Assembly (NCBI RefSeq): GCF_963675165.1
Contig: NC_087385.1
Coordinates: forward strand, 5,969,412 to 6,033,411
Length of the DNA: 64,000 bases
Source of the DNA: Halichondria panicea
Lineage: Eukaryota > Porifera > Demospongiae > Suberitida > Halichondriidae
Direction: 5' to 3'
Part shown: piece after piece, positions 16,998-24,662 of the stretch
How positions within the stretch are numbered: position 1 is the stretch's first letter
Layout of the letters: each line of letters opens with the position of its first letter
Program-made: the position numbers and the translations under genes
The notes under the pieces: model-generated
The model's database searches: none
What the model was told of the DNA's origin: nothing
What the model saw: the letters and a program-made list of their open reading frames with translations, nothing else

Positions 16998-19900
16998 TTA
17001 CCAGAAACCATCTAATTGTTCATTCGTTTTTGTCTTTGGCTCCTCATCTGGATGTGCTGAGTCGGCAGGTTCTCCACTCTGTGATAGCTTCTTCTCCATG
17101 GCAATATCTGTGTTTACACGATGTAATACAATACCAGATCACATTACACATTGACATGCATGCAGCTACAAAATCATACCACGAGTCAGACTATGCGCTG
17201 GGGAATATAAGTTTGTATATTGGTAATGGTGCTTGGACCCATACAAGGAAGTTTGAGCAAGGAAGAAGCAAAGCCATGCAGACTACACTGCAAACCATAA
17301 AACATTCAACCGTAAAACATAAAATTGCTTTACTTTGGCACAAACAAATGTAGAAGAGGTGTTTCTGTTGTCTTCCATTTAACCAAGGACCAGTGTTACT
17401 CAAACCACACATCCTAGAGAGGGTCACTTATGGGGACTTAGGGGCAGCCATGATAGACTTCATACAACCACCATTAACATACATTCCAACCATTAACATA
17501 ATTAACACATTGAGCTAAAAACCTATTTTTTGTTAAGCCTGACGCTTAGGGAGAGTTCTCCCTGGAGACGAGAGTGATTTCATATAATTAATGGCTAAAT
17601 TAGAGAAAATTCTTTTTAGAATATATCACCTTCTGTTGTCGGAGTCCACTGCTTGATCACCGTGGTAACGCGATGTAATAATTTCTTGTTGAAACTGACG
17701 ATTTTCAATTTCAAATTCGGGTTTAGCGCAAGCAGAGCAGATTGTGTGGCAGAGTTGCTGGCATCAGACTGACCTGTGTTCACGTCATCAGCTCTGTCGA
17801 TTGCACGTTGATTGAGAATGTCTGCAAGAACAAATAAACATTTTTAGCGAGTATGCCCCCACACACGTACCCAAGCATATGTACACCACCCACACACGTA
17901 CTTGCTGCATGTGTACACCACCCACACACACACACCCACACACACACACACACACACGTACCTTCCATGGTTGGCAGAGTGTTGCTTATATGGGGAATGA
18001 CTTGCTTCAGCCACTGTGCTTTGAACATGGCTATCTCTTCTTTTATGGCCGGGCTGAGTGTCCCTCTCTTGGAAAAGCTAACGGGTGGGGGATCGCGCTT
18101 CAGTTCAATCAGTGACGAGAGCCGCTTGACATTCTGGCCTCTAGTCGGGTGTACCACATCTGTGGGAGGGATGGTCAAAGCCAGAGAGCATATGTTAATA
18201 CCAATACATGCTGTGGGAGGGCAACACTAAACACAAATATCATAATTATTCGTGTGTGTAACTAATCTGTGACTTAATTGATCAGTAACTGAGAAGACAC
18301 AACAGTTACTTGTGAAACACCAAACAGTTAGTGCACCCGCTCTCCCCCTGAATACACCCATCATGACAGCACTGGTCGTACCTCACCCTTGACACACACC
18401 CACACACACCACATACCTCACCCTCACACACACCACACTCACACCACACACAACACTCACGTCCGACGGGGAAAGGGGGTGTAGGCTCCACCACTTCGAC
18501 ATGTCTCAAGAGCGACGGGTTAAATGACCTGATGAGATTCTGGACAGTGAACTGGGCACGCTCACTGGAGTATCCATCAACAACATGTCCTGAGGGAATC
18601 AAAACAGAGGTATTATTCACAAGAGACATGTCTGCTATGCCTTTAATCTATTTTGATTCTTTAAAATGAGAATAATATGTCTTTGATTCTTTAAAATTAA
18701 CTTTTATTAATTTGTTGTGAATAACTACAATTACTATTCTGGAGTGAAGTTTAGTTAGCCAGCTGTCAAAGGAAGCTCAGGATTGTCAACAACAAATGCA
18801 CAAAGCACACTCTGAAACTCTATACACTAATAGGAAAGGGTCCCTACAAATACATTTTAATTTTTAATTAGGAAGAAACGAAACTCTATACAGTATTGGG
18901 AAAGGTCCCCGGAAAGGTCCCCACAAATGATTTTAATTTTTTAATTAAGAATTAAGAAGATGCATGGTGGATTCCTTGACCAATGGTTCCTATGCAACAT
19001 CTGTAACCAAGTAAACAAGAGCATGGTTCAGATGCTATCAAAGAGGGTTGCTCTGGACGAAACCTATACGGAACTTCCTGTCGACCCACTTCACAAACAA
19101 ACTATCATATCTATAGTGTGAGCTGTTGTTTTTCAAGGGTTTTAAAATTAAGGTTTCAGTGCATGTTTATTTCCCTACATTATAAGCAGACATATATGTG
19201 CAGGTATATTGATGTGTGTGTGTGTGTTTGTCCTAATAACCATTCATTTTCCTCGCAGCTAGTGGCGTCAAAGTTCCTCAACGATGAAGGAGAAATGGAA
19301 GCTCTCACAAACACAGACTTTGCCACAATCGATTTTATTTGTAAATTATTTTTCACTCTTAATCACATCACAGTAGCAAAATAAGGAAACTAAACTACTC
19401 CAATTGTCTTCGGAGCTATCAAATAAAGGATCCATGCACTGTACTGCACTTGTATGGCACCTCACACATCTACACGCCGGGTATACCAACCCAAGCCCAG
19501 GCTTTAACTCGATCTCGATCCTTATTTTGGTACTGTGATGTGATCGAAAGCGAAAAATTGTGACAAAGTCTGTGCTTCCATTTCTCCTTTATCGTTAAGG
19601 AACTTTGATGCCAACGTTATTTAGTGACAAACACACACACACACACACCTCAAAGCCTTGTCTCTGAGTTATAGGTTATAGAAGGCTTACACTGCTTACC
19701 AACCCAAGACAAGCTCCTAGGGGTGGGTAATATACTGGTACACTTTGAATGCTTACACTGCTTACCAACCCAAGACAACTATATAGCCTCGATCCCAGGC
19801 TGCACTTCCTCTGAAGAGGCCAGTGAAGGAGGCTAGGGGTGGGTAATGTACTGGTGACACTTACCCACTCTGAATGCTTTCTTCTCCACGGTTTCGACTG

Positions 19901-24662: not shown

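Follow-up and report, generated by a model that had tools for sequence, protein, structure and literature searches.

A sponge exon chain encoding a RING finger and a RAF/CTR1-like kinase, with a predicted beta-thymosin repeat tail

On the minus strand of a 64,000-nucleotide stretch of the Halichondria panicea genome (the window, C9:5969412–6033411 of a 131-Mb, 39-contig assembly, against which all own-genome searches were run), 13 exons between 24662 and 16998 join into 2,646 nt that translate into 881 amino acids with a sole, terminal stop codon. We hold with moderate confidence that this chain is one gene, and that its product would be an enzyme in which a RING finger and a RAF/CTR1-like kinase are followed by a basic, polyproline-containing segment and then by two to four repeats of the beta-thymosin/WH2 type, which would tether it to actin. 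The domain content, the completeness of the motifs, the in-phase chain of exons and the beta-thymosin homology of the tail are established by the analysis.

If the chain is a single gene, its product would physically tie ubiquitination and phosphorylation to actin monomers, offering a testable route from the state of actin to protein turnover. It would also be a RING–kinase from outside plants with another kind of partner module, which would suggest more than one origin for the enzyme pairing. The tail repeats, which had been overlooked, shift the likely function toward actin-linked signaling, and the exon pattern suggests a route of construction in which phase-1 beta-thymosin exons were added to a kinase gene.

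The RING exon and the kinase domain

Exon 1 (24407..24662, minus strand, as are all exons of the model) contains the start codon and a C3HC4 RING spanning residues 1–86, and is supported by Pfam, by PDB matches and by its donor site. Five Pfam RING models score above their own cut-offs (zf-C3HC4_4 at 4.9e-8, zf-RING_UBOX at 6.6e-8, zf-RING_5, zf-C3HC4 and zf-RING_2), bearing out the N-terminal RING proposed in a first-pass annotation, and the closest PDB chain is that of TRIM32 (1.1e-8). The final RING cysteine is immediately followed by an arginine (CPLCR), which we take to be the ‘linchpin’ position of the RING.

The kinase domain is distributed over the five exons that follow, all recognized by Pfam and by motif, and the last three by PDB matches as well: exon 2 (23790..23962) carries a linker and the Gly-loop through the AVK lysine (residues 86–143), exon 3 (23488..23658) the N-lobe with alphaC, exon 4 (23085..23301) HRDLKSKN and DFG, exon 5 (22593..22821) APE and the C-lobe, and exon 6 (21607..21735) the end of the domain. 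Pfam scores are 8.5e-57 for Pkinase and 7.5e-56 for PK_Tyr_Ser-Thr. The motifs occur in the canonical order, with DRGAFGEV from residue 123, the AVK lysine at 143 and alphaC FQREV at 158–162, continuing through HRDLKSKN at 235–242, DFG from 258 and APE from 282. With the catalytic K, E, HRD, DFG and APE all found, the complete kinase claimed by the first-pass annotation is upheld, and the domain is, by motif content, catalytically complete. The RING exon and all five exons of the kinase (23962–21607) are thus readily recognized by homology.

Among solved kinases the closest are plant CTR1 (7e-49) and then B-Raf (1.4e-43), and 59 of the best 60 of 1099 PDB sequences are CTR1 or RAF, the 60th being EGFR. 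Within the genome itself, the best non-self kinase matches look Src-like by eye, in a single-exon search that favors intronless kinase domains. We refer to the kinase as RAF/CTR1-like, and provisionally as TKL-type, on the basis of its nearest PDB matches.

The 444-nt intron that separates the RING from the kinase (intron 1, 23963..24406, minus strand) contains, by its sequence, local tandem and inverted repeats of about 35 bp. These had been read as a mobile element that might have brought the two domains together. In a search of the genome the 35-mer has two copies, both within intron 1, and no further copy with up to three mismatches was found in the genome by a search that skips very common words and may miss an old repeat; a search with the element recovered a single partial relative, on contig C14. 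Because there is just this one partial relative and no other copy of the 35-mer, a transposon-driven fusion of RING and kinase through intron 1 has little support.

The C-terminal tail

The region beyond the kinase had been described as a long proline-rich, basic tail. The basic region and a polyproline run (residues 599–618) are indeed present, both in exon 9 (19865..20457), but this description overlooked a series of beta-thymosin repeats, for which the tail exceeds the Pfam cut-off: PF01290 matches the tail with E = 2.8e-8 (33.8 bits vs. a cut-off of 24.8), and matches the final 246 residues alone with 3.5e-9 (36.7 bits vs. 24.8). Of eight shuffled tails made as a control, four were scanned, and PF01290 matched none (0/4).

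We number the repeats r0 to r3. Exon 9 ends the list of candidates at the N-terminal side with a possible WH2-like repeat, r0, whose WH2 match (E = 0.12, 12.5 bits) lies under the cut-off of 23.1. Exon 10 (18461..18589), flanked by phase-1 introns, encodes the beta-thymosin-like r1. The first part of r2 occupies exon 11 (17962..18159), where PF01290 is subthreshold and the intron lies at the beta-thymosin position; exon 12 (17630..17821), likewise subthreshold for PF01290, holds the end of r2 and the start of r3; and exon 13 (16998..17107), placed by the joined model, completes r3 and terminates the protein (...LDGFW, stop). The acceptor of exon 13, at 17107, is weak (71st percentile). Scanned singly, r2 and r3 score 13.9 and 17.4 bits with PF01290, both under the cut-off, whereas Pfam has no match for r0 or r1. 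A search of the PDB gave three matches, none of them significant; in one, r3 aligns in register with Ciboulot (E = 0.29).

Shuffle tests of the repeats against one another, each taken as an intron-anchored block, support r2 vs. r3 (ungapped, 0/2000; gapped, 0.001). For r1 vs. r3 the ungapped p was 0.006 and the gapped 0.775, for r0 vs. r1 the gapped value was 0.002 and the ungapped 0.879, and the remaining three pairs were not significant (r1 vs. r2, ungapped, 0.054). On this sequence evidence we regard r2 and r3 as firm beta-thymosin repeats, r1 as a probable beta-thymosin-like repeat and r0 as a possible WH2-like one, such that the tail would hold two to four beta-thymosin/WH2 repeats.

Intron positions provide a separate line of evidence. 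All four introns of the tail are in phase 1 (4/4). Within r2 and r3, the intron splits the codon that follows PTME and PTTE, respectively; the introns associated with r0 and r1 are phase 1 as well, with the alignment of both these repeats being uncertain. Two beta-thymosin genes of the ordinary kind, L029 and L030 (PF01290 4.2e-13 and 8.5e-13, over the cut-off), are present in the same genome; in each, an apparent phase-1 donor (GTAAGT and GTGAGC, by eye, on a single exon each) interrupts the codon immediately following PTKA or PTKE, respectively. Thus r2, r3 and both ordinary genes have in common an intron site of phase 1 in the codon after PT-x-(E/A), and because this position is common to the ordinary genes, homology of the tail is favored over composition or chance. 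The shared position supports both the homology of the tail and its exon model, as far as these can be read from sequence.

Gene models

The first-pass annotation had offered a 13-exon model in which all phases close, and the joined frame (881 residues, one stop, at the end) agrees with it. In a 14-exon variant, the model frame is free of internal stops in all 14 exons, and both alternative forward frames contain stops in 13 of them. By codon preference, the model frame of this variant beats the other two forward frames in 11 of 14 exons and ties in one (exon 1, with the RING, and exon 3 are those in which it is not the top forward frame), and across all six frames it ranks top in 6 of 14, again with one tie; codon bias is therefore a weak discriminator of the gene model. 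An optional 42-nt exon (20910–20869) was left out, its donor being poor (score −5.3, 37th percentile of 654 GT sites); its omission leaves the frame unchanged and keeps the exon count at the 13 of the earlier model. Splice sites were scored with matrices built from general splice-site frequencies, and percentiles are relative to 654 GT and 562 AG sites.

Between the kinase and the tail lie two exons. Exon 7 (21335..21454) is a linker with an open frame, a codon log-odds of 0.39 (top of six frames) and no Pfam domain found. Exon 8 (21037..21165; log-odds 0.47, top of six) encodes a charged, helix-like stretch with DEELAHQM, which had been thought to resemble a ubiquitin-binding helix; no Pfam family, including UIM, matches exon 8 at E up to 10, and this suggestion is not borne out. 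The acceptor of exon 8, at 21165, is weak (75th percentile).

The weak spots of the model are the joins from RING to kinase and from kinase to tail, since the support for each comes from splice signals and phase rather than from homology. At the RING-to-kinase join, the donor of exon 1 (G|GTGAGT) is in the 98th percentile and has the top score within the exon 1–intron 1 stretch; the acceptor at 23962 is pyrimidine-rich, matches the donor in phase and is in the 95th percentile (score 2.71), with two acceptors inside intron 1, at 24104 and 24069, scoring higher (3.84 each). The kinase-to-tail join is more weakly supported by splice sites and phase: the donor of exon 8 (21037) is in the 94th percentile and is outscored within the gap by donors at 20932 and 20596, and the acceptor of exon 9 (20457) is a modest one (88th percentile), outscored by acceptors at 20708 and 20648.

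It is at this second join that the possibility of tandem genes arises, in which a RING–kinase gene running from 24662 to about 20760 would be followed by a separate polyproline beta-thymosin protein encoded from exon 9 on. Poly(A)-like signals lie ahead of exon 9 (AATAAA at 20519; ATTAAA at 20648 and 20564), and therefore the kinase half could terminate in the gap, where the modest acceptor at 20457 has higher-scoring competitors. Moreover, reading through the optional 42-nt exon leads to a stop near 20760, and an in-frame ATG (SMKHAIPP) some 67 codons into the tail reading frame could serve as a separate start. Yet the junction of exons 8 and 9 is in phase whether or not the optional exon is included, and the tail frame ahead of the SMKHAIPP ATG is open and has no ATG of its own; we consider two tandem genes somewhat unlikely. 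A division at the first join, into a one-exon RING protein of about 91 residues running into intron 1 and a kinase gene starting at an ATG near 23999, seems to us quite unlikely. Both of these reading frames are present, intron 1, with its 444 nt, is at least as long as the 0.4 kb that separates exon 1 from the AKT-like start upstream, and the codon bias of the RING exon is not distinctive; against this stand the strong GTGAGT donor at the end of exon 1 and its phase-matched, pyrimidine-rich acceptor. No AATAAA or ATTAAA was found on the minus strand from 24662 to 20649, which would also speak against a separate RING gene; this weighs little, however, because none was found downstream of the final stop to 16400 either. 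On sequence, a RING and a kinase in a single chain make the best gene model.

Relatives and known systems

Searched against its own genome, the RING and kinase together gave at least 91 matches (90 of 948 candidates were scored). Among 13 matched loci examined by eye, which comprised coiled-coil kinases, Src-like, ROR-like and others, none has a RING beside the kinase in its longest open frame, an inspection that would overlook a RING encoded by another exon. With the RING exon as sole query there were 17 matches (E up to 1), including the exon itself, and none of the other 16 lies less than 180 kb from a kinase among the matches listed, the nearest being 187 kb away (contigs C7 and C8 have no kinase among the matches listed). 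A second RING–kinase gene is thus absent from the matches listed for this genome. The tail as a query recovered itself in five pieces plus three other matches (E 0.23–0.48), with no whole-tail paralogue among the matches listed. No relative was confirmed in prokaryote contigs (35 pattern-matched stretches) or viral contigs (4), in one single-protein scan of each of these two collections, a search suited to close relatives only. On the same contig, at C9:271405-1448288, five closely similar kinases (L021, L023, L024, L025 and L027), each in one long frame with a coiled-coil-like N-terminal stretch by eye, are apparently a local expansion.

Neither a RING–TKL animal kinase nor a kinase with beta-thymosin repeats is described in the literature surveyed, which covered the titles and abstract openings listed, with most subscription papers and bioRxiv preprints outside it; a counterpart of an actin-gated kinase/E3 was likewise absent within that scope. 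The plant precedent named by the first-pass annotation, KEG, was well chosen: in KEG, as would be the case if the joined model here is right, RING and kinase are in one chain, with the RING ahead of the kinase. KEG (KEEP ON GOING) is a RING-kinase-ankyrin-HERC2-like E3 (PMC5385374). Its ankyrin and HERC2-like repeats, for which neither half of the sponge protein has a Pfam match at E up to 1, are replaced here by a polyproline and beta-thymosin tail. The closest RING sequences among PDB chains belong to RING E3 ligases of the TRIM/RNF kind (TRIM32, RNF168), from which the sponge protein differs in that its RING is followed by a kinase; neither B-box nor NHL has a Pfam match in it.

Beta-thymosin repeats are WH2-like and bind actin monomers. 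The tail resembles the multimeric beta-thymosins (Ciboulot, tetrathymosin and the termite HsjCib) in its tandem array of beta-thymosin/WH2 repeats, in having introns within them and in having exons that can be skipped without loss of frame. The multimeric beta-thymosins, however, are small proteins that stand on their own, whereas here diverged repeats, in exons of 43–66 codons, are appended to two enzymes. For the Ciboulot homologue of a termite, introns are placed mid-repeat and exons are skipped, with splicing restoring the repeats, and multimeric forms are described as promoting assembly, vs. the monomer-sequestering thymosin-beta, through repeats that bind actin (PMC2896938).

Possible function

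Among kinases, the nearest parallels are ILK and, alongside it, LIMK/TESK and Abl. In the ILK-PINCH-Parvin complex, a kinase fold is physically coupled to WH2 actin-binding motifs: the pseudokinase engages the WH2 motifs of its partners, leading to actin bundling at adhesions (PMC6203859). The WH2 motifs are there in partner proteins, ILK is a pseudokinase and a RING goes unmentioned in that text, unlike the arrangement proposed here. This precedent also raises the prospect that the full protein, still as the product of a single gene, might have scaffolding rather than catalysis as its main role; with the kinase catalytic motifs all present, unlike those of a pseudokinase, we give this a slim chance.

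If the protein is the single-chain enzyme that we favor, its predicted tail repeats would bind actin monomers, and its polyproline run might bind profilin-actin or SH3 partners. Taken together with the WH2–kinase coupling seen for ILK, such binding would place both enzymes at sites of actin assembly, where they would act locally. The kinase could phosphorylate its own chain or its partners and so promote RING-dependent ubiquitination in the manner of KEG, and occupancy of the tail by actin may gate the activity of kinase and E3. The full version of this scheme, an actin-gated dual enzyme in which monomeric or profilin-bound actin on the tail switches the kinase and the E3 of the same chain, so that phosphorylation and ubiquitination would directly report the state of actin, is speculative, and we think it unlikely to hold as stated.

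Neighboring genes

Some 0.4 kb from the RING exon and head-to-head with it, the plus strand carries a gene (25056-27190) with a PH domain across two joined exons (1.9e-9) and a weak kinase exon match (8.9e-5, under the cut-off), which we take to be AKT-like. Apparently inside it, on the minus strand at 26015-26724, is a long tandem repeat array with three open minus-strand frames, not likely to be protein. Downstream of the RING–kinase gene, an RGS domain match (2.1e-5) is found at 12051-12620 (minus strand); a stretch starting MEEVAGPDKDPLLADFF near 16700, for which there is no Pfam match, may belong to the same gene as this RGS match. At 9016-9438 (plus strand), WW and BAG domains share one open frame, presumably a BAG3-like combination. 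Farther along the window, a single open frame at 46302-46958 (minus strand) has a cadherin repeat followed directly by an Ig domain, with an fn3 match under the cut-off nearby (44992-45930), and a TTC3-like winged-helix domain (4.9e-14) is encoded at 57121-58269 (plus strand).
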